Below the pieces are notes generated by a model. The model was not told the origin of the DNA. It saw only the letters and a list, made by a program, of their open reading frames with translations, and made no database searches. From positions 1-40,741 of the forward strand of contig JAKSLB010000031.1 of assembly GCA_024401435.1 (NCBI GenBank): a stretch of 40,741 nucleotides of DNA, read 5' to 3'. The position numbers and the translations under genes were made by a program. The stretch is from Paludibacteraceae bacterium (GTDB taxonomy: Bacteria > Bacteroidota > Bacteroidia > Bacteroidales > Paludibacteraceae). Below, in pieces: positions 31,624 through 40,602 of this stretch (the first letter of the stretch is position 1; every line of letters starts with the position of its first letter).

Positions 31624-32955
31624 ATGAAAATTGTTATTGCAGGAGCTGGTGAGGTTGGAACTCACTTGGCGAAGATGCTTTCTCGTGAGAATCACGATAT
31701 TGTTGTGATTGAAGAAGATAGAGAGAAAGTACAGAATATTGAAAAATTATACGATTTGATTGCTGTGCAGGGAATTTGTACTGCTATTCAGGATTTGAAA
31801 GAAGCAGGTACAAAGGATGCAGATCTTTTTATTGGAGTCACTCCGATAGAGAGTCGAAATATTACGTCTTGTATTTTGGCACATAAATTGGGCGCTAAAA
31901 AGACGGTTGCCCGTATTAATAATTATGAATATTTGTTGGAAGAAAATCAAAAGTTTTTCAATGATTTAGGTATAGATGCTTTGATTTATCCTGAATTGTT
32001 GGCGGCGAAAGAGATTACCGCTTCCATCAAAATGAATTGGGTCCGTCAGTGGATGGAGTTCGAAGATGGAGCATTGACGTTGATTGGTATGAAGATTCGT
32101 ACCAATGCACCTGTTATCAATCAAAAATTGATGGATTTGAAAAATAGTGAGTTCTATCGTGTTGTTGCCATTCGTCGAAATTCGGAAACAATTATACCCA
32201 AGGGTTCTGATGAAATCAAAGCAAATGATATAGTCTATTTTATTACTACTAAAGATTATATACCAGATGTCCGTATGCAAGCGGGTAAGGAGGTGATTCA
32301 GGTGAAGGATTTGATGATCGTTGGTGGTGGTAACATTACCATGAAGACCATTGAAAGTATGCCTGATAATGTGGATGTGAAGGTCTTGGAACGAGATAAG
32401 TTGAAAGTAACCAATTTGATGGAAAAGACAGATAACGCTATGATCTTAAATGTTGATGCTAGTGATTTGGATGTCTTGAGGGATGAGAATATCGAGGAGA
32501 TGGATGCTTTTGTGGCGTTATCAGAAAATTCAGAGGCAAATATTTTGGCTTGTATTGCGGCTAAAAGATTCGGATTAAAAAAGACGATTGCTGAAATTGA
32601 AAATGTAGACTATATACAGTTGGCTGAAAGTTTGGATATAGGAACTGTTATCAATAAAAAACTATTGGCTGCTAGTTATATTTATCAATATACTTTGGAT
32701 GCAGATGTACGGAATGTGAAATGTTTGACGCATGTGGATGCTGAAGTGGTTGAATTGACAGCTAAAGAGGGATCTGCTATAACCAAAGGTAGAATTATGG
32801 ATGTTCATTTGCCAAATGATTTATTTATTGGTGGTGTTGTTCGTAATGGAGTGGGGTTCATTGCAAATGGTCAAACACAAATTCAGTCGGGAGATGATGT
32901 GATTGTGTTCTGTTTGTCATCTTGTTTCCATAAGTTAGATGGATTGTTCAATTGA
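31624..32955 (+). CDS. trkA: Trk potassium uptake regulatory subunit TrkA
   Basis: A 443-residue cytoplasmic NAD-binding subunit gating the TrkH/KtrB-type K+ channel. Two RCK modules are visible: the first Rossmann motif is IAGAGEVGTHLA (5-16) with acidic IEED at the end of beta-2; the second begins MIVGGGNITMKT near 235. Each is followed by a TrkA-C domain (e.g. GSDEIKANDIVYFITT; QIQSGDDVIVFC). The membrane partner trkH, often adjacent in related genomes, is not in the window; trkA is followed directly by convergent terminators. Confidence 0.93.
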   Translation: MKIVIAGAGEVGTHLAKMLSRENHDIVVIEEDREKVQNIEKLYDLIAVQGICTAIQDLKEAGTKDADLFIGVTPIESRNITSCILAHKLGAKKTVARINNYEYLLEENQKFFNDLGIDALIYPELLAAKEITASIKMNWVRQWMEFEDGALTLIGMKIRTNAPVINQKLMDLKNSEFYRVVAIRRNSETIIPKGSDEIKANDIVYFITTKDYIPDVRMQAGKEVIQVKDLMIVGGGNITMKTIESMPDNVDVKVLERDKLKVTNLMEKTDNAMILNVDASDLDVLRDENIEEMDAFVALSENSEANILACIAAKRFGLKKTIAEIENVDYIQLAESLDIGTVINKKLLAASYIYQYTLDADVRNVKCLTHVDAEVVELTAKEGSAITKGRIMDVHLPNDLFIGGVVRNGVGFIANGQTQIQSGDDVIVFCLSSCFHKLDGLFN

Positions 32956-32961
32956 TTTTTG

Positions 32962-32995
32962 AAAAAAATAGTGGAGAATTTATAGAAGTCCACTA
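32962..32995 (-). terminator. Second (distal) terminator of the peptide unit
   Basis: On the minus strand, TAGTGGA (32995-32989) pairs with TCCACTA (32975-32969), followed by seven T (A-run 32962-32968). It backs up the terminator at 32999-33038 and also lies just beyond the convergent trkA stop. Confidence 0.75.
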
Positions 32996-32998
32996 AAT

Positions 32999-33038
32999 AA
33001 AAAAGCCTCAATGTTTTTCTTTTTGAAATCATTGAGGC
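32999..33038 (-). terminator. Main terminator of the small-peptide unit
   Basis: On the minus strand, GCCTCAATG (33038-33030) pairs perfectly with CATTGAGGC (33013-33005), followed by TTTTTT. It has no T-run in the plus direction, so it serves the minus-strand peptide unit and not trkA. Confidence 0.88.
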
Positions 33039-33091
33039 TACAGTCTGATTTGAAATCGCTGTCGTCGATGTTGTATTTGTTTGCGTTTCAT
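33038..33091 (-). CDS. Possible basic 17-residue peptide
   Basis: The third ORF in the same minus-strand transcript: ATG at 33091, product MKRKQIQHRRQRFQIRL, stop just before the terminator stem. It is strikingly basic (8 of 17 residues Lys/Arg/His) with no acidic residue. It starts 23 bp after the second hydrophobic peptide. No paralogue supports it, so it could be a chance ORF in the 3' untranslated region. Confidence 0.3.
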   Translation of the reverse strand: MKRKQIQHRRQRFQIRL

Positions 33092-33114
33092 TTTTGCGGG
33101 ATTTTAGAGGTTAA

Positions 33115-33198
33115 TTACTTCATGGATGAGATTACCATGTATACTTTAGTCGAAAAAGTGACTGTGATAATGGATGCTAAAATTACTGCTATTGTCAT
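33115..33198 (-). CDS. Hydrophobic 27-residue peptide, copy 2
   Basis: ATG at 33198, 27 codons and a stop. One predicted membrane helix (TIAVILASIITVTF) is followed by a short polar end with Lys (STKVYMVISSMK). It aligns with the copy 38 bp upstream: 11 of 26 positions identical with one gap, most others conservative, and the core KVxMVI shared. Equal length (84 bp) and paralogy argue that both are real genes. They lie between a consensus promoter and a terminator on the same strand. Function unknown; size and topology resemble type I toxin or small membrane regulator peptides. Confidence 0.6.
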   Translation of the reverse strand: MTIAVILASIITVTFSTKVYMVISSMK

Positions 33199-33236
33199 AA
33201 TCAATAAATTTAAAAAGGTTAATCACTAATTTTATT

Positions 33237-33320
33237 TTAGTCTTTCAATGTGTCAATAACCATTAACACTTTAACTGCGAAAGATGTTGCGATAACTGAA
33301 GAAAATAATGCTACTATCAT
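33237..33320 (-). CDS. Hydrophobic 27-residue peptide, copy 1
   Basis: ATG at 33320, 27 codons and a stop. Hydrophobic segment IVALFSSVIATSFAV, then KVLMVIDTLKD. It is the promoter-proximal member of the tandem pair, about 57 bp after the predicted transcription start region's 5' stem-loop begins. There is no Shine-Dalgarno sequence; the upstream stretch is A/T-rich as for most genes here. Too short for routine gene calling. Function unknown. Confidence 0.6.
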   Translation of the reverse strand: MIVALFSSVIATSFAVKVLMVIDTLKD

Positions 33321-33358
33321 AATTATACAATTTTTATACATTAATAATTAATTTTTTT

Positions 33359-33379
33359 GTGATTCTCTCATTGAATCAC
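33359..33379 (-). other. 5' stem-loop of the small-peptide transcript
   Basis: GTGATTC and GAATCAC form a perfect 7-bp stem with a 7-nt loop immediately downstream of the minus-strand -7 box, so it would lie at or very near the 5' end of the RNA. A run of seven A follows on the minus strand, so it is not a terminator. Such 5' stems stabilise mRNAs and are common in type I toxin messages. Confidence 0.55.
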
Positions 33380-33383
33380 ATTG

Positions 33384-33415
33384 CAAATATATGCATGTGT
33401 ATTTTATTTTACAAA
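33384..33415 (-). promoter_or_regulatory. Full promoter TTTG-N20-TATATTTG, small-peptide unit
   Basis: On the minus strand, TTTG (33415-33412), a 20-bp spacer and TATATTTG (33391-33384) fit both Bacteroidetes boxes exactly. It drives the unit reading toward trkA. Confidence 0.78.
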
Positions 33416-33449
33416 TAAATATACAAAAAGTTTTGTTAAATAATCTTAA

Positions 33450-33540
33450 AATAGTGTATATATGCAAAATGTTTGCATAAATATGTAAAAATAATGTATA
33501 TTCTTTGTTGTGAATAAATATTCTATAATAATGTATATTA
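33450..33540. repeat. Three AATARTGTATAT direct repeats and a 19-bp palindrome
   Basis: AATAGTGTATAT (33450), AATAATGTATAT (33490) and AATAATGTATAT (33527) recur at about 40-bp spacing. Between the first two is the palindrome TATGCAAA-ATG-TTTGCATA (33461-33479). The block lies between the divergent peptide-unit and YtxH-gene promoters, an operator-like position. The surrounding A/T richness makes part of this likely by chance. Confidence 0.35.
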
Positions 33541-33578
33541 AAAATGGTTAATTGTATAAATTCATAAAAATAAAATGA

Positions 33579-33586
33579 TAGATTTG
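33579..33586 (+). promoter_or_regulatory. -7 box TAGATTTG, YtxH-like gene
   Basis: TAGATTTG followed by C matches TAnnTTTG. It gives a ~100-nt leader before ATG 33692; I see no strong structure in that leader. Confidence 0.55.
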
Positions 33587-33691
33587 CAACGTGTGAGTAA
33601 TCATACTATATATTAATAATTATGATTCTGTTATTAATATGAAGATTTAAGAATCGCATAACAACTAATTACAATTTAAAATTTAAAGATT

Positions 33692-33904
33692 ATGGACAAA
33701 TTTTTTAAGGGTGCAGTCTTTGGTGCTGCAGTGGCATTAGCAGGTGCTTATTTATTAGGTACGGAAAAAGGCAAGGAGACTTGCAAGAAAGTGGTGGATG
33801 AAGTAGATAAATTGAAAGATGAGTTGAAGTCGAAGTTGGATGAAACGTTGAATAATCAGCCAGAATCTTCTTCGTCAGATGAAGAGGAGATAGTTTATGA
33901 GTAA
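33692..33904 (+). CDS. YtxH-like small membrane-anchored protein
   Basis: A 70-residue protein. Residues 6-22 are a small-residue-rich membrane helix (GAVFGAAVALAGAYLLG) followed by TEKGKETCKK, the YtxH-domain pattern, then an amphipathic charged helix (VVDEVDKLKDELKSKLDE) and an acidic Ser-rich tail. Family members are associated with stress or the envelope; no molecular function is established. Probably co-transcribed with the ATP-grasp-like gene 46 bp downstream. Confidence 0.8.
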   Translation: MDKFFKGAVFGAAVALAGAYLLGTEKGKETCKKVVDEVDKLKDELKSKLDETLNNQPESSSSDEEEIVYE

Positions 33905-33950
33905 AACTTCAAAAAATAGAATTGGTTAGTCAGGTGTTTGTTTCACAATT

Positions 33951-35120
33951 ATGACTTTTCATTTCTTTAATCCTGAAAATGATCTTGCCCTTGCATTGGG
34001 CGATAAACATTATAATCCTCCGAAAAACATTGTGCGTTTTTCGGAGGATCTTTCGTTACTTCCTGTATGGTATGCAGAGGTGAATGATTGTGTGTTGTCT
34101 CGTACGCATGTGCCAGCAGACTGGATGCAAAAAGAACGGAATGAGTTGTCTGTCAAGTCCACTTGGAGACATATTGATGAATATTTGAAAGAGTCTATTT
34201 CGTCCGATGTTCTCTCTCCATGGGGATGGAATTATTCTTTATATAATATGTGGAAAAATAAAAGTTCCTCTTCTCAGATAATAGATTGTGAGAAAATACG
34301 TGAGTTGTCTGCGCGTTCAATTGTTTGTGATATACTTACATTACCTTCTATTAAAGGAGAAATAGTACCGGCTTCATTTGTTCAACCCAAAATCTTGACT
34401 AATTGGAACCAAGTTTGCTCGTTTGTTCATGAATACAAAGTTGTGGTATTAAAAGCTCCGTGGTCTAGTAGTGGAAAGGGATTGTATTGGGTTGAGGATG
34501 AATGTTCTGAAGCATTGGAAAGGTGGACTCGAAATCTATTCGCAAAACAGGGATATATTATGGGAGAAAAGGTTTACGAAAAGGAGAAAGATTTTGCTAT
34601 GGAGTTTAAAAGTGAAAATGGTGATGTCTCCTTTTTAGGCTACTCTTTTTTCCAAACAGAAGACGGAAAGTACAAAGGGAATATTTTAGCTTCTGATGAT
34701 TGGATGAAAGGTCAGTTGTCTCAATATGTTCACCCCTCTGTATTACAAAATGTCATAACAATCTTATGTGAATTTTTTACAAGTCGCATTGCACCTTATT
34801 ATAGGGGTTACTTTGGTGTAGATATGATGGTTGTTAAATCTGAGAATGACTATTTTATTCACCCTTGCGTAGAGGTGAATTTACGAATGAACATGGGCGT
34901 TGTGTCTCATATTCTAAATGATCGTTATGTGCAAAAAGATCATAGGGGCTATTTCTTTGTCACCACATTCCCTACACATGAAGCTTTGTTGGAGTTCCAT
35001 GCATCATCACAACATGATTATCCATTGGAAATAGCAAATTCCCGTATTATAAAAGGATATATGCCATTAACTTATTTTCAAAATGATGCAACATCTTTAG
35101 CGGGAATGATTGTTGAGTGA
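33951..35120 (+). CDS. ATP-grasp-like protein, uncharacterised
   Basis: A 389-residue cytoplasmic protein. The second half resembles an ATP-grasp ligase: VVVLKAPWSSSGKGLYWV (165-182) has the nucleotide-binding Lys168 and the Ser/Gly loop, and the C-terminal metal site is YFGVDMMVV (Asp291) with CVEVNLRMNMG (Glu308, Asn310, Arg312), the usual ExN pattern. The N-terminus (MTFHFFNPENDLALA) is typical of a Bacteroidetes-only hypothetical family that I recognise but cannot name. ATP-grasp enzymes join a carboxylate to an amine or thiol; substrate unknown. No terminator is seen before the next promoter. Confidence 0.75.
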   Translation: MTFHFFNPENDLALALGDKHYNPPKNIVRFSEDLSLLPVWYAEVNDCVLSRTHVPADWMQKERNELSVKSTWRHIDEYLKESISSDVLSPWGWNYSLYNMWKNKSSSSQIIDCEKIRELSARSIVCDILTLPSIKGEIVPASFVQPKILTNWNQVCSFVHEYKVVVLKAPWSSSGKGLYWVEDECSEALERWTRNLFAKQGYIMGEKVYEKEKDFAMEFKSENGDVSFLGYSFFQTEDGKYKGNILASDDWMKGQLSQYVHPSVLQNVITILCEFFTSRIAPYYRGYFGVDMMVVKSENDYFIHPCVEVNLRMNMGVVSHILNDRYVQKDHRGYFFVTTFPTHEALLEFHASSQHDYPLEIANSRIIKGYMPLTYFQNDATSLAGMIVE

Positions 35121-35348: not shown

Positions 35349-35840
35349 ATGTATTACAAAAACAAGTTAAAAGGTTTGGTGTGTTTGCTTATAGCGCTCA
35401 TTCCCTTTTATGCGAGTGCGGCAAATGTCTTGGTTGTAGAAGTGAATAATTCTTCTAAGAAAGAGGTTATGTTTGCTTTGAAAGACACACCTAAGTATTG
35501 GATAGAAGGCTCGACTCTTAAGCTTTCGTCTTCTACCACAAGTGCAGAATTCCCACTTTCTACAGTTGTAAAAGCTTATTTTAAGAATGGTACTTTATCG
35601 TCATTGGTCGAGTCAAATTCTGAAAAAGTAAGTTGTTACCCTAATCCAACGGTTGAGGGAGTTTATATTACGAATGTAGGAAAAGATGATTCTGTCCTTT
35701 TGTTGGATATGACTGGCAAGATATTGGCACAGCCTGTAACTATCAATGTAGACATGCTTTACATTGATTTCTCTAATCTTCCTACAGGAAGTTATTTCGT
35801 GAAAGTTAATCAACAATCTTTTAAAATTATTAAGCAATGA
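35349..35840 (+). CDS. Small secreted protein with T9SS sorting domain
   Basis: A 163-residue protein. Signal peptide 1-24 (ending YASAA). Residues ~25-85 form a small beta module (VVEVNNSSKKEVMFALKDTPKYW ... EFPLSTVVKAYF). It resembles the short module at the front of many Bacteroidetes cell-surface proteins, and of the two downstream CotH proteins. Residues ~95-163 are a canonical T9SS type A sorting domain (CYPNPTVEGVYITNV, VLLLDMTGKIL, SNLPTGSYFVKV). Almost nothing but the sorting domain is left as cargo. Its stop overlaps the next start by 4 bp (ATGA), so it is translationally coupled to the CotH genes and may be a surface partner of them. Confidence 0.82.
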   Translation: MYYKNKLKGLVCLLIALIPFYASAANVLVVEVNNSSKKEVMFALKDTPKYWIEGSTLKLSSSTTSAEFPLSTVVKAYFKNGTLSSLVESNSEKVSCYPNPTVEGVYITNVGKDDSVLLLDMTGKILAQPVTINVDMLYIDFSNLPTGSYFVKVNQQSFKIIKQ

Positions 35841-37426
35841 ACAAGTTATATTTCTTGTCTTGCGTAGGTTTGTTGTCAGTTAACACGTTTGCGCAAGATA
35901 ATATTAAAATAGATTATAAAGATGGTAGTTCTCGTACGTTCCCTACAAATTTGGTGGATACGTTGGTTGATAACTTATCGTCTCATAAAGTGGTTTTGTC
36001 AATTCCTTCAGAAACGGAAGAGTTGTCTTACCCTGATATGATTCAAGAATCACAAATTAATTTGAATGGAGCGGATAAAAAACAGAGCTTTAATCTCCTT
36101 CAGTCTATTTCTATCCTTCAATCTGCGAATTCTAAACTCAGTGGTGATTATGTGATAAATGTAGGTAATCAATCCTCAGCAACAATCGTCATCCCTTATT
36201 TAAATGATTTTTCTAATTTGAAGGTTTCTTTGAAATCGTCTGGTTCCTATGTTTATGTTGATGGAAAAAAATTCACATCGGGTGATGCTGTTAATTTTTC
36301 CAAACCCGTAAAGTTTCAGATAGTCGCTTTTAATGGAGATATTCGTTCGTATGAGATTTCCGTTAAAAACTCATCTCTACCAATTCTTTCTATTGATGGA
36401 TCGTCTGTCACAAGTGATTGGTCGGAACAAAAAATATCATTGACGGGTGGAATCTCTAATATCACTGGAGAAGTAAAGGGTAAGGGCTCTCATTTTAAAT
36501 CAGGTTTAAAGAATTCATATTCTTTGAAGTTCGATGATAAGCAGACAATGTTATCATTTCCAAGTGCGAAACGTTGGGTTTTGCTTTCAGCTCAACATGA
36601 TCCTTCTTTGTTGAGGACTTCTGTTGGATTCGATTTGGCTAAAAATTTCTTCTCCTTTGATTGGACTCCATCATCAGAACCTGTAGAATTGGTTGTGAAT
36701 GGTCAATATCAAGGAACCTATTTCTTGACAGAACAAATTCGTATCTGTAAGAATAGGATAGAGGATGGGGTAGTTATTTCTGCTGAAAGTGAAGTGAAAG
36801 AGGGCGATGATTCATTTGTATTGTCACAATCAGGTATTCGTTTTGTGATGACTGATCCTGAGACAGGTTTCGATGGAACGAAGTTGTTACGTTCTAAAGG
36901 GAAATTGAATGCGTTTGAATCAATTTTGTGGAAAGGTCAGTCCATCTCCAACTCCATTGCCGATATGAAAACTTTTGCTGATTGGTATGTGTTCTCTGAA
37001 TGGATGAAAAATGAAGATATGTTGATGTCGGATGATTATCTGACGATGCGTCCTGATGGTTCAATTGCTATGGGACCTATTTGGGATCAAAGTCAAACAT
37101 TTGGGTCGCAAGATGAGTTTGATGAAGAAGGATGGGTGTCAAAAGATAATTCTTTTGTTGCTCAATTATTAAAAAACAATACGTTCCGTTCGTATGTTAC
37201 AGAAAGATTGGAATATCTATCCAATCATGAATCGGATATTTTATCAATCGTGACTAGTCGAGCAAATGCGATATTAGAAAGCGCGGCTGCTAATGAGGCG
37301 ATTTGGCATTCATTAGGTGCTAGTCAGTGTGATGTGGAGACTGTAACTCCATTATTTGAAAGTAAAAAACAGCAAATCTCTGATTGGTTGATTAGACGTT
37401 TGCAGTGGATGAAACAAAACTTTTAA
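35837..37426 (+). CDS. CotH-family protein, active-site motif degenerate
   Basis: A 529-residue secreted protein. Signal peptide 1-20 (NTFAQ). A short N-terminal beta module (~21-75) precedes a DUF5018/Ig-like beta-sandwich (~83-178, TIVIPYLNDFSNLKVSL ... KPVKFQIVAFNGDIRSYEI), then a CotH domain (~205-529): KNSYSLKFDDKQ, AKRWVLLSAQHDPSLLR, PVELVVNGQYQGTYFLTEQI. In active CotH kinases the block GPIWDFD supplies metal-binding Asp; here it is GPIWDQS (413-419), and the KGRGNSTW block is KGKGSHFK. So kinase activity is doubtful. No T9SS sorting domain. Middle gene of the three-gene operon; the next gene starts 11 bp on. Confidence 0.82.
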   Translation: MNKLYFLSCVGLLSVNTFAQDNIKIDYKDGSSRTFPTNLVDTLVDNLSSHKVVLSIPSETEELSYPDMIQESQINLNGADKKQSFNLLQSISILQSANSKLSGDYVINVGNQSSATIVIPYLNDFSNLKVSLKSSGSYVYVDGKKFTSGDAVNFSKPVKFQIVAFNGDIRSYEISVKNSSLPILSIDGSSVTSDWSEQKISLTGGISNITGEVKGKGSHFKSGLKNSYSLKFDDKQTMLSFPSAKRWVLLSAQHDPSLLRTSVGFDLAKNFFSFDWTPSSEPVELVVNGQYQGTYFLTEQIRICKNRIEDGVVISAESEVKEGDDSFVLSQSGIRFVMTDPETGFDGTKLLRSKGKLNAFESILWKGQSISNSIADMKTFADWYVFSEWMKNEDMLMSDDYLTMRPDGSIAMGPIWDQSQTFGSQDEFDEEGWVSKDNSFVAQLLKNNTFRSYVTERLEYLSNHESDILSIVTSRANAILESAAANEAIWHSLGASQCDVETVTPLFESKKQQISDWLIRRLQWMKQNF

Positions 37427-37437
37427 AATTCGTTGTC

Positions 37438-40400
37438 ATGAAAAAGATATTCATAAATAGAATCCTATTATTGGCAGCATCTTTGCTTTCAATGAATGTT
37501 GCCTTTGCACAAAATAAGATACAATTACCAACCGCTTATGGTGTGGATGCATTGGATCTTAATATGATTGATACTGTCAATTTCGGAGAAGAAAATAATC
37601 GTATTATCATTGCTTCTCCTTTAGATGATGTTGATAAAATCACATTCAATGTTTCTGAAGTAGATTTAAGTAAGCCTGATAATGCAACTACAGGAAATCA
37701 GTTGTCTGCGGTTTCTTTGACGGCTTCTGCTAATCCTAATGTGATTTATACTACAGTTGAAGGACAAAAGAATGGCAACGAATTTAATATCTTCGTGCCT
37801 TATTTGATTTCGTTCTCTAATTTGTCTCTTTCTTTTAAAGCAACTGGAACTGTTTATTGTGATGGTGCTTTACAAAAAAGTGGTGCTTCAAGAGTGAATT
37901 TTACTACTTCTAAAACATATAAGGTGGTGGATGCTTCTGGTAATATCGCTACTTATAAAGTTAATGTCTATAATTCGGGACTTCCAGTTGTATATGTGAC
38001 GACTTCCGATGGCGCATCATTATCTACCAATTGGTCTGGTGATCATTCTTTGGTTGTTAAAACATCAGAGACAGAGGTTAATTATGATGATAATTCGGTT
38101 GTTTTGAAATATAAAGGTAGTAAATATTCCACTTCTCAAAAACGATCATATAGTGTAAAGTTGGATAAAAAGGCATCAGTTTTAGGTTTATCAACGGGAA
38201 AACGATTTTCCATATATTCTAACGCAGATGATGCAACTTTGTTACGTACTCGTATTGCTTATGAAATAGCTTCTAAATTTTCTGATTTGAGTTGGACTCC
38301 ACAAGCAGTTCCTGTTGAATTGGTAGAAAATAATGTACATAAGGGTTCTTACTTGTTTGCAGAAGATGCTCGTATCTCAGCTGAACGTGTAAATGCACAA
38401 GCTTTGTTGGAGTGGACTGATGAATATGAAGAGGATAACGATTGTTTCAAATCAGATAAATATAAGTTAATCTTTACGTTGGAAGATGAAAATGGCATGT
38501 CTGCTTCTGATGCTAATGAAACTATTAACTCATTTGAAAGTTCTTTGGCAAAAGGCTCTGGTTTGGATAAAATTGATATGAATAGTTTTGTTGACTGGTA
38601 TTTGTTACATGAAATCTTTAAGGATAAAGACGCTGTTAAATCTGCAATGTTGTCTATTGCTGCTGATGGTAAGATTTCTATGGGACCAGTTAATTCTCAG
38701 GAAGATGCTATCGGTAATGAGAATGAATCAGCAGAAGGCTATGTTTTGCGTAATCATCCTTGGTTCGTTCAGTTGTTCGAAAATCCGGAATTTGTCTCTG
38801 CTCTATATTCCAGATTTGAAGAAATCAGTAAAGAGATAACTTCAATGTCTTATGATGAATATGTTAAGGAGATATCATTGTCGTATAAAGGTAATGAAGA
38901 GTTGTATTCTTTAAAGACGGATTTGGAAAAAGAAGTTTCTGAAATTCAATCATGGTTAAAAAAACGTATTGAATGGTTGTCCGCTCGACTCTCCATTGAG
39001 AATGAAACGGTTAAGAGTTTACAACCTAACGACAGAAACAAAATTCTTTCATTTTCTATTAAGAAGAATGCCAATTCTCAGGCCTTGCTTTCTGATTACA
39101 ATGCTACTATTTCAGGCGATAGCATTAAGATTTTTGTTCCTTATTTGGCACATTTCGATTTGAAACCAGAATTCTCATTGTCATCTGGAGCAAAAGCATA
39201 CGCATTGGGTGAGGCTCAAACAAGTGGTTCTTCTGTTGTCAACTTCTTACATCCTGTTACCTATAGAGTTGTGTCTCAAAGTGGTGAAGTTCGTAATTAC
39301 ATTGTGAAAATTTATAATTCTGGAATTAATGTATTGTACATCAATACTCCTGGCAATAAAACAATCAATAGTAAGGAAACTTGGATTGATGGTACTTCTT
39401 TAGTGGCTTATAGAAGTGATGGAACAGTTGATTATGATTCGGGTTCTGATTATGTTCAAGTGAAAGGACGTGGTAATTCAACATGGACTATTGAAGGTAA
39501 GAAACCTTATGCTATCAAGTTGAATAAGAAACAACCAATGTATGGTATGTTGGAACACAAACGTTGGGTTTTGTTGGCTAACTATTATGATGTAACATTC
39601 TTTAGAAATGAGTTCTCTAACTATTTGTCGAAAAGCTTTACAACTTCAGATTGGTCGCCAAGCGGTGTCTTTGTTGAATTGGTTTTGAATGGAAAACACA
39701 ATGGAAATTATTATTTCTGTGAGCAAGTGAAGATTAATGACAAACGTATACCAGGTCAATATTTGGTTGAGGCTGACTTGAAGGAGGGTAGTGGACAATT
39801 TCAAGGTACTAAAAGTGGAAACTATTTCAATGTGAAAGATCCAGATGTTGCAAATGGTAGTCAGGAACTACAGTATGTGAAAGATAAAATTAATGCATTT
39901 GAAACAGCTCTTTATGATACAACTGGTTCTGGAGAGGTGAATGCTTCAAGTTGGAGTAAGCTTAAAGAGATGATTGATTTGCCAAGTTTTGCCGATTGGT
40001 ATATTATTAAAGAATTGAGTAAAGATTACGATGGTAATATGTATACAAGCTGTTACTGCCATATCATGGAAGATGGCCTTATCAAGATGGGTCCTATATG
40101 GGATTTTGACTTGGCATGGGGAGGAAATCCATTTGAAACGATGATGTTTGGTACAGGAGATTATGCTTGGTACAATAAACCGGAAGACTATTATATTGGT
40201 GCAAGACAACAGTCAGCTGGAATGGGTATGTTTGGCGGCTTTGGCGACTGGGGTGGCGGTTGGAATACTGGTGGTTGGAATACTGGTGGTTGGAATACTG
40301 GTGGCAATCAGAATGTACAAGCCTCTGGACCAACCAACTGGTTTATGATCTTCTTTAAACAAAAAGAATTTAGAGCTTTAGTTCTTGAAAGAGTTAATAA

Positions 40401-40602
40401 TATGGTTGATCATTTAGATGAGATTAATGCTTATATCGATCAAAATACAAAACTTCTTACTCTTTCCTCTGAATCTAATAACGCATGCACAACTTATTAT
40501 TCCGATAATAAGAGAATGTCATATGCGGAGAGAATGAATATAATTAAAAAATTCTTCACAGACAGATTAAAGTGGATTCAAAGTGATTTAAGTAGACGTT
40601 AG
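37438..40602 (+). CDS. Double-CotH secreted protein, second domain intact
   Basis: A 1054-residue protein. Start: ATG 37438 gives a signal peptide (MKKIFINRILLLAASLLSM ... AFAQ); the frame extends to 37405 but that would overlap the previous gene and bury the signal. N-terminal module (~26-75, LDDVDKITF). Unit 1 has a DUF5018-like sandwich (~88-178) and a degenerate CotH domain (~190-520: KYKGSKYS, GPVNSQED where GPIWDFD is expected). Unit 2 has a sandwich (~535-626) and a full CotH domain (~640-1050: KGRGNSTW 676-683, EHKRWVLLANYYDVTFFRN, MGPIWDFDLAWG 884-895). CotH proteins phosphorylate serines of partner proteins in Bacillus; in Bacteroidetes the target is unknown. Residues 940-956 are a WNTGG repeat. 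No sorting domain. Terminator follows. Confidence 0.85.
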   Translation: MKKIFINRILLLAASLLSMNVAFAQNKIQLPTAYGVDALDLNMIDTVNFGEENNRIIIASPLDDVDKITFNVSEVDLSKPDNATTGNQLSAVSLTASANPNVIYTTVEGQKNGNEFNIFVPYLISFSNLSLSFKATGTVYCDGALQKSGASRVNFTTSKTYKVVDASGNIATYKVNVYNSGLPVVYVTTSDGASLSTNWSGDHSLVVKTSETEVNYDDNSVVLKYKGSKYSTSQKRSYSVKLDKKASVLGLSTGKRFSIYSNADDATLLRTRIAYEIASKFSDLSWTPQAVPVELVENNVHKGSYLFAEDARISAERVNAQALLEWTDEYEEDNDCFKSDKYKLIFTLEDENGMSASDANETINSFESSLAKGSGLDKIDMNSFVDWYLLHEIFKDKDAVKSAMLSIAADGKISMGPVNSQEDAIGNENESAEGYVLRNHPWFVQLFENPEFVSALYSRFEEISKEITSMSYDEYVKEISLSYKGNEELYSLKTDLEKEVSEIQSWLKKRIEWLSARLSIENETVKSLQPNDRNKILSFSIKKNANSQALLSDYNATISGDSIKIFVPYLAHFDLKPEFSLSSGAKAYALGEAQTSGSSVVNFLHPVTYRVVSQSGEVRNYIVKIYNSGINVLYINTPGNKTINSKETWIDGTSLVAYRSDGTVDYDSGSDYVQVKGRGNSTWTIEGKKPYAIKLNKKQPMYGMLEHKRWVLLANYYDVTFFRNEFSNYLSKSFTTSDWSPSGVFVELVLNGKHNGNYYFCEQVKINDKRIPGQYLVEADLKEGSGQFQGTKSGNYFNVKDPDVANGSQELQYVKDKINAFETALYDTTGSGEVNASSWSKLKEMIDLPSFADWYIIKELSKDYDGNMYTSCYCHIMEDGLIKMGPIWDFDLAWGGNPFETMMFGTGDYAWYNKPEDYYIGARQQSAGMGMFGGFGDWGGGWNTGGWNTGGWNTGGNQNVQASGPTNWFMIFFKQKEFRALVLERVNNMVDHLDEINAYIDQNTKLLTLSSESNNACTTYYSDNKRMSYAERMNIIKKFFTDRLKWIQSDLSRR
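40261..40305 (+). repeat. 15-bp tandem repeat, three copies, in CotH gene
   Basis: TGGAATACTGGTGGT occurs three times head to tail (last base C in copy 3), encoding WNTGG three times inside a Gly-rich loop of the intact CotH domain. Being in frame and near-identical, it is a likely slippage site. Confidence 0.9.

Follow-up and report, generated by a model that had tools for sequence, protein, structure and literature searches.

A putative autonomous micro-operon of tandem small membrane peptides with a charged terminal mini-ORF in Paludibacteraceae

The window analysed here, a stretch of 40,741 nucleotides from an uncultured rumen Paludibacteraceae bacterium, carries on its minus strand a compact unit (32999-33415) composed of a promoter, a 5′ hairpin, two 27-codon open reading frames (ORFs A and B), a 17-codon Arg-rich ORF (ORF C) and one intrinsic terminator. 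In about 400 bases, it encodes two tiny peptides predicted to be membrane peptides and one smaller charged peptide. Since relatives share the layout and no family was matched in the libraries searched, the unit looks like a real set of small genes that has been overlooked, as far as sequence can tell. A preliminary description had placed at this site a minus-strand unit with its own promoter, hairpin, two hydrophobic peptides and terminator, and this outline holds. Among the papers listed by full-text literature searches, none evidently describes it. Downstream lies a convergent trkA gene (31624-32955; NCBIfam NF007038, 602 bits, cut-off 374), which starts 44 nt beyond the T-run of the terminator, and upstream a divergent YtxH-like gene (33692-33904; PF12732, 40.8 bits, cut-off 37.5). 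Further along the window, positions 35349-40602 hold tandem genes that, by eye, have a CotH-type or secreted look and a C-terminal sorting-like tail.

The terminator of the unit (GCCTCAATG...CATTGAGGC-T6; 32999-33038, minus strand) is retained in relatives. It is the only one: of the two consecutive T-tailed terminators proposed at first, the other (32973-32993) turned out, by repeat-pattern match, to be an arm of a dispersed repeat and no part of the unit, the pattern giving 111 matches in the genome with at most two mismatches versus one for the reversed control. Thirty repeat loci yielded 16 paired arms, 15 of which have inverted ends and a span of 196-200 bp, the remaining one spanning 114 bp. 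The repeat is MITE-like, about 199 bp long, with inverted ends (GGGGATTTCTATAAATT...; e.g., L139-L168) and, by eye, short TA-rich duplications at its flanks; argG has one full copy upstream.

The promoter (TTTG-N20-TATATTTG; 33384-33415, minus strand) was assigned by pattern match to the Bacteroidetes sigma-ABfr type, following the consensus as it is given in the available text of PMC7366714. By itself the motif carries little weight, because the window holds seven sites of this type against 2.2 expected by shuffling. Its recurrence was followed through a catalogue of 49 loci from four genera, namely 30 from the genus of the window (g1), 10 from g4, eight from g20 and one from g6; in 47 of them, TTG-N18-23-TAnnTTTG lies ahead of the first helix ORF. 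A generic sigma-70 scan and a terminator scan gave nothing useful, the latter missing the real terminator on account of its loop limit. The 5′ hairpin (TGTGATTC/GAATCACA; 33358-33380, minus strand) has a perfect 8-bp stem, is predicted to begin a few bases at most from the 5′ terminus of the RNA and sits outside the initiation region. In the loci of the genus, a 7-8-bp stem is present in 12 of 16 and a 6-bp variant in G002, while G006, G008 and G013 lack it; in G009 and G015, a by-eye reading finds a G-C pair replaced by A-U with both sides changed. Taken at face value, the promoter in nearly all loci and the position of the hairpin look made for output.

Between the unit and the YtxH-like gene extends an AT-rich region (33416-33690) with repeated TATGCA/TATACA half-sites, which are possible regulator sites. 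Such half-sites number 130 in 38 upstream regions, against a mean of 20.8 and a maximum of 37 in mononucleotide shuffles, the 38 regions being related sequences. Half-sites of the forms TATGCA, TGCATA and TATACA are also dense, above shuffles, 5′ of other units. Motif discovery on the upstream regions returned AT-rich background only. Control by ArgR was considered and is not supported: the sites lack a fixed ARG-box spacing, and they differ from the box in the argR leader.

ORF A (33237-33320, minus strand, 84 bp) encodes a 27-residue peptide, MIVALFSSVIATSFAVKVLMVIDTLKD, with a single hydrophobic helix; the assignment comes from ORF reading and a coding test, and an in-frame ATG further upstream (33341) is not retained in relatives. 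ORF B (33115-33198, minus strand, 84 bp) encodes its 27-residue paralogue, MTIAVILASIITVTFSTKVYMVISSMK, assigned by a coding test and by the profile A5. The paralogy of the two, claimed originally from the window, is modest there, where A and B are 41% identical, a result matched by 19 of 500 shuffled versions of A; it is the relatives that secure it. In G002, the two peptides are 66% identical, and A5, which contains window A and leaves window B out, finds window B at E = 2.7e-4. The lower E-values of earlier peptide profiles are partly circular, since both window peptides were contained in them.

The catalogue holds 61 distinct helix peptides of 23-38 residues, the starts of some of their ORFs being the choice of the parser. 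Read from the N-terminus, the charge that comes first is K or R in 58 of these (median position, 18); all 61 have [KR][VI] within residues 12-22, and none has proline in residues 1-22. Their hydrophobic moment is low (mean, 0.14), a value in keeping with a helix that crosses the membrane and not with an amphipathic one. Amphipathic secreted peptides differ in this respect, which tells against reading the products as secreted peptides akin to leaderless bacteriocins or phenol-soluble modulins. A single transcript yielding a series of short formyl-Met peptides would suit that reading, but no exporter gene adjoins the units among the neighbours listed, and we consider it very improbable.

Whether the ORFs evolve as coding sequence was assessed by scoring codon pairs with BLOSUM against column shuffles. 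Seven divergent members of the genus gave z = 3.2 for A, 4.9 for B and 3.5 for C, with none of 3000 shuffles reaching the observed score in each case; with five clade representatives, two, zero and one of 3000 shuffles did so, respectively. The possible third basic ORF of the preliminary description proved real: it is ORF C (33038-33091, minus strand), an Arg-rich mini-ORF of 17 residues, MKRKQIQHRRQRFQIRL, whose stop touches the terminator stem. The R-class helix, defined below, gave z = 3.9 (0/2000 shuffles) and its C ORF z = 2.5 (3/2000), while the helices of the g4 K class and of g20 gave z = 3.7 and 3.9 (0/2000 each). For the basic C of g4, the result was not significant (z = 1.6; 105/2000). 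Pooled pN/pS over 13 genomes was 0.60 for A, 0.53 for B and 0.44 for C, and substitution tests on single pairs were rarely significant, the lowest P being 0.015 among 19 comparisons. Together with the g4 result, these values count against the reading preferred below. Overall, the column-shuffle tests favour translation and support the view that all three kinds of ORF evolve as coding sequence.

These results bear on the idea that the locus specifies a non-coding RNA and has its ORFs by accident. The retained 5′ hairpin and terminator and the size, that of a small intergenic RNA, would be in keeping with it; the helix-ORF coding tests, however, are positive in three genera, and the three genomes of the genus without the hairpin have retained ORFs. 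Relatives with stops or frameshifts in the ORFs and a conserved RNA were looked for, and the ORFs are open in the 13 aligned members of the genus, the exceptions among genus loci being one missing helix ORF in each of G006 and G013 and a single helix ORF in G009. A purely non-coding locus is the least credible of the explanations weighed here.

The loci of the same genus were supplied by a DNA search of 101 relatives, and a profile search (A1) of 300 genomes of the family found the peptides in 16 of 16 genus genomes. In each of these, the unit was read at the locus of the window or its counterpart: 13 have A, B and C, G009 has its one helix ORF with an Arg-rich C, and G006 and G013 have one helix ORF with a neutral C. 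Such retention places the unit beyond chance. The profile A5 matched 40 of 358 family genomes at E <= 0.05, of which 29 have readable units (16 in g1, four in g4, eight in g20 and one in g6), so that 13 genomes outside the genus present the same plan; the E-values are partly circular because some unit sequences are themselves rows of A5, those of G132, G121, G137, G034, G102, G160, G180 and G020 not being among them. Of the other 11 family matches, all weak, G024 was inspected and has no unit. Beyond the family, a search of 393 genomes of the order (E <= 0.05) matched 11 other genomes with E between 0.0056 and 0.046, and none of the six matches inspected (L084, L086, L087, L089, L090 and L094) contains a unit; a search of 247 genomes of the phylum gave one match, L096, without a unit. 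Neither search brought up a convincing member. As for mobile elements, no unit was found in viral contigs, phages or plasmids, five stretches of viral contigs that fitted the pattern having yielded no confirmed case. Judged by these comparisons, the unit is coding and conserved within one family.

The plan that recurs in the catalogue consists of a promoter, one to three tandem ORFs for single-helix peptides and then a mini-ORF of 8-19 residues ending on the terminator stem. The terminal mini-ORF is present in 48 of the 49 loci, 43 having been read by script and five by eye (G009, G132b, G137, G121 and G020), and is lacking in G150; one more unit, truncated where its contig stops (G173:C40, L073), was left out of the 49. 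A terminator was parsed in 47 loci, one of them wrongly: in G020, the parse gave two helix ORFs and a false terminator, where the locus really has three tandem helix ORFs, the mini-ORF MDTVRRFFGK and a terminator. Two classes can be told apart. The mini-ORF is basic in 22 loci (14 in g1 and eight in g4), always with a K-type first helix, and acidic in 16 (14 in g1 and two in g4), always with an R-type first helix; it is neutral in 10 loci, of K type. These class counts follow common ancestry and should not be read as independent events. Since g1 and g4 each have both classes, the K/Arg-rich and R/acidic classes probably predate the split of these genera. They stand together in 13 of 16 g1 genomes, no acidic locus having been found in the genome of the window, G006 or G013.

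The surroundings of the unit vary. In 22 loci the next downstream gene is co-directional with the unit, in 21 it lies on the opposite strand, and in six its orientation could not be assigned. A divergent upstream YtxH-like ORF is found in at least 10 of the 16 genus loci, the Pfam match being known for the window copy, while the other genera have different neighbours. Because neighbours vary in this manner, the unit does not belong to one larger operon and, in terms of gene context, is autonomous. None of the neighbours and domains seen points to a membrane target. In g20, loci L111-L116 have in common a co-directional gene of about 126 residues (MTEKVRYSDEELEEFKQ...) some 240-250 nt past the terminator, which we take to resemble a DksA/TraR-type protein. 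Several acidic-class units (L118-L121 and L132) have past the terminator a convergent gene starting MIDYSQIPSPAYVVDEVRL, presumably like a carboxynorspermidine decarboxylase.

Regarding known families, the preliminary description recognised none for the peptides, and this was borne out, with no meaningful match in any library searched. Window A and B gave no hit in Pfam or NCBIfam at E <= 10. For 18 members of A5, the best E-values were 0.028 in Pfam, 0.0039 in NCBIfam and 0.036 in PHROGs, none of them meaningful, with no hit in PADLOC and none among PDB sequences at E <= 10; Rfam gave none at E <= 5 for positions 32000-34500. KdpF, CydX, PspG and similar proteins are small inner-membrane regulators and subunits, and the peptides resemble them in having a single short helix, a chromosomal location and constitutive-looking signals. 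Unlike them, the peptides belong to a tandem-copy unit of their own with a mini-ORF, no kdp or psp gene is among the neighbours listed, and scores remain far under the cut-offs: one member reached 16.9 bits against 57 with the KdpF model (NF011326), which is the best NCBIfam hit given above, over its first 14 residues only, and another 14.2 bits against 53.7 with the NCBIfam model of PspG. In a more general sense, the coding tests and composition suggest what is expected of a small membrane protein operon, that is, translated ORFs with a membrane helix.

The likeness first drawn was to type I toxin loci, and the corresponding explanation would be that the peptides are toxins silenced by an RNA, antisense or acting in trans, that the promoter consensus does not reveal. 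Many known type I toxins are physically like the helix peptides, which counts against the explanation preferred below. Repeated copies are a feature shared with the Ibs/Sib and ShoB toxins. The available accounts describe Ibs/Sib and ShoB of E. coli as hydrophobic peptides of 18-26 residues (PMC8309996), and the size, N-terminal helix, positive C-terminal side, tandem paralogues and narrow range of the present family resemble toxins as presented there and in PMC7472228. Putative type I units with small ORFs are also described for B. thetaiotaomicron in the accessible text of PMC7366714. In comparison with Ibs/Sib and ShoB, however, the copies share one transcript-like unit, an antisense promoter was not found and the peptides are unrelated in the libraries. 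With Fst and Ldr, the 61 peptides share a length of about 30 residues, an N-terminal hydrophobic helix followed by a charged C-terminal tail, sometimes an interface Trp, and an intergenic, lineage-bound occurrence. On the other side, PXXXG is found in 0/61 (the looser [PDST]XXXG in 3/61, none from the window), and a conserved Trp is missing from both window peptides, with [KR][VI]W occurring in 16/61. As for a convergent antisense RNA sharing a bidirectional terminator, a search for Bacteroidetes-type promoters likewise found none for it in the window unit.

The antisense search used TTG-N18-23-TAnnTTTG on the opposite strand, from the first ATG to 150 nt past the terminator. A site was present in 8/49 loci, an over-representation with respect to 60 shuffles (mean, 2.6; at most six). 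Six of the eight lie inside A in one clade of seven genomes, which speaks for the toxin explanation, and the others are in G013 and G102; 41/49 loci, the window unit among them, have none. Nor is there a structure hiding the start codon that is common to the genera; the signals favour expression over silence, and the charged terminal mini-ORF is without counterpart in those toxin families as they are described in the sources at hand. Membership of the Ibs, Ldr or Fst classes is thus not sustained, and a toxin locus of the type I kind appears rather unlikely; the alternative offered in the preliminary description, small membrane regulator peptides, is preferred.

The mini-ORF raises a separate question, that of its role at the terminator. 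The stop of C lies at most 2 nt from the terminator stem in 43/43 parsed loci, a figure that is partly built in, since the parser prefers ORFs near the terminator; the ORFs so picked are the same ones whose sequence is conserved. Among 396 large control ORFs, 54 have a terminator (score 12 or more) within 110 nt and 0/54 within 3 nt, the quartiles of the stop-to-terminator distance being 20, 25 and 36 nt. As to the Arg codons of C, CGA makes up 15/25 in the five clade representatives against 67/448 in 28 window genes (binomial P = 3e-7, assuming independent codons, which holds incompletely), and 16/17 in the basic C ORFs of g4 (six of the eight loci) against 12% in the g4 flanks, while an S1-like gene has CGA in 0/17. 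According to the available text of PMC4046918, Arg pairs containing CGA are slow in a his-leader test system. In E. coli, a terminator a few bases past a stop codon is repressed by ribosomes, and shortening the distance between stop codon and terminator from 28 to 5 bp lowered termination from about 90% to under 10%, as reported in the accessible part of PMC4824070.

These features would favour an attenuator-like switch formed by ORF C and the terminator, with A and B incidental or secondary. Leader-peptide attenuators resemble the unit in the short ORF with rare-type Arg codons before an intrinsic terminator, but here no conserved downstream gene exists, two or three coding ORFs precede the mini-ORF, and most acidic-class C members have no Arg codons. 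Moreover, terminators located less than 100 bp into a coding region are efficient, according to the same partial source (PMC4824070), and C measures only 27-60 nt, which makes gating by an ORF of this size less plausible unless ribosomes come from B, whose end lies 19-30 nt upstream of C. Attenuation of a downstream gene as the general function is rejected in view of the gene orientations, and the switch as a whole seems improbable.

The reading preferred is that of an autonomous, vertically inherited micro-operon of non-toxic small inner-membrane peptides, to which we would give slightly better than an even chance. The helix peptides, hydrophobic from residue 1 and with a first charge that is usually K or R near residue 17, would insert in the inner membrane with the N-terminus out and the C-terminus in. 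There they may modulate a membrane protein or the membrane itself, rather than act as toxins held by antisense RNA. ORF C would be translated, and ribosomes standing on its stop codon would mask the 5′ side of the terminator stem; in this manner, C may tie RNA 3′-end formation to translation, and a role of the mini-ORF in 3′-end control is possible. A more elaborate and quite doubtful version holds that the two classes are ancient paired micro-operons in which the intrinsic terminator is gated by a charged terminal mini-ORF that ribosomes read slowly. Ribosomes reaching the stop of C would cover the terminator arm and the RNA would run on, whereas with ribosomes lagging, as on the CGA Arg codons of the basic class, the hairpin would form and a short stable mRNA for the peptides would accumulate. 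If this were true, peptide output would report the state of translation or of arginine without any regulated downstream gene.

To a rumen lineage that is represented here by MAG records, the finding adds an unnamed family of very small predicted membrane peptides, encoded on a constant genetic plan. Tandem micro-ORFs that fall under common annotation limits can be recovered by whole-genome profile search. The two classes, side by side in most genomes of the genus, imply lasting and distinct roles, and the mini-ORF that ends on its terminator is a candidate for a clean case of translation acting on RNA 3′-end formation.
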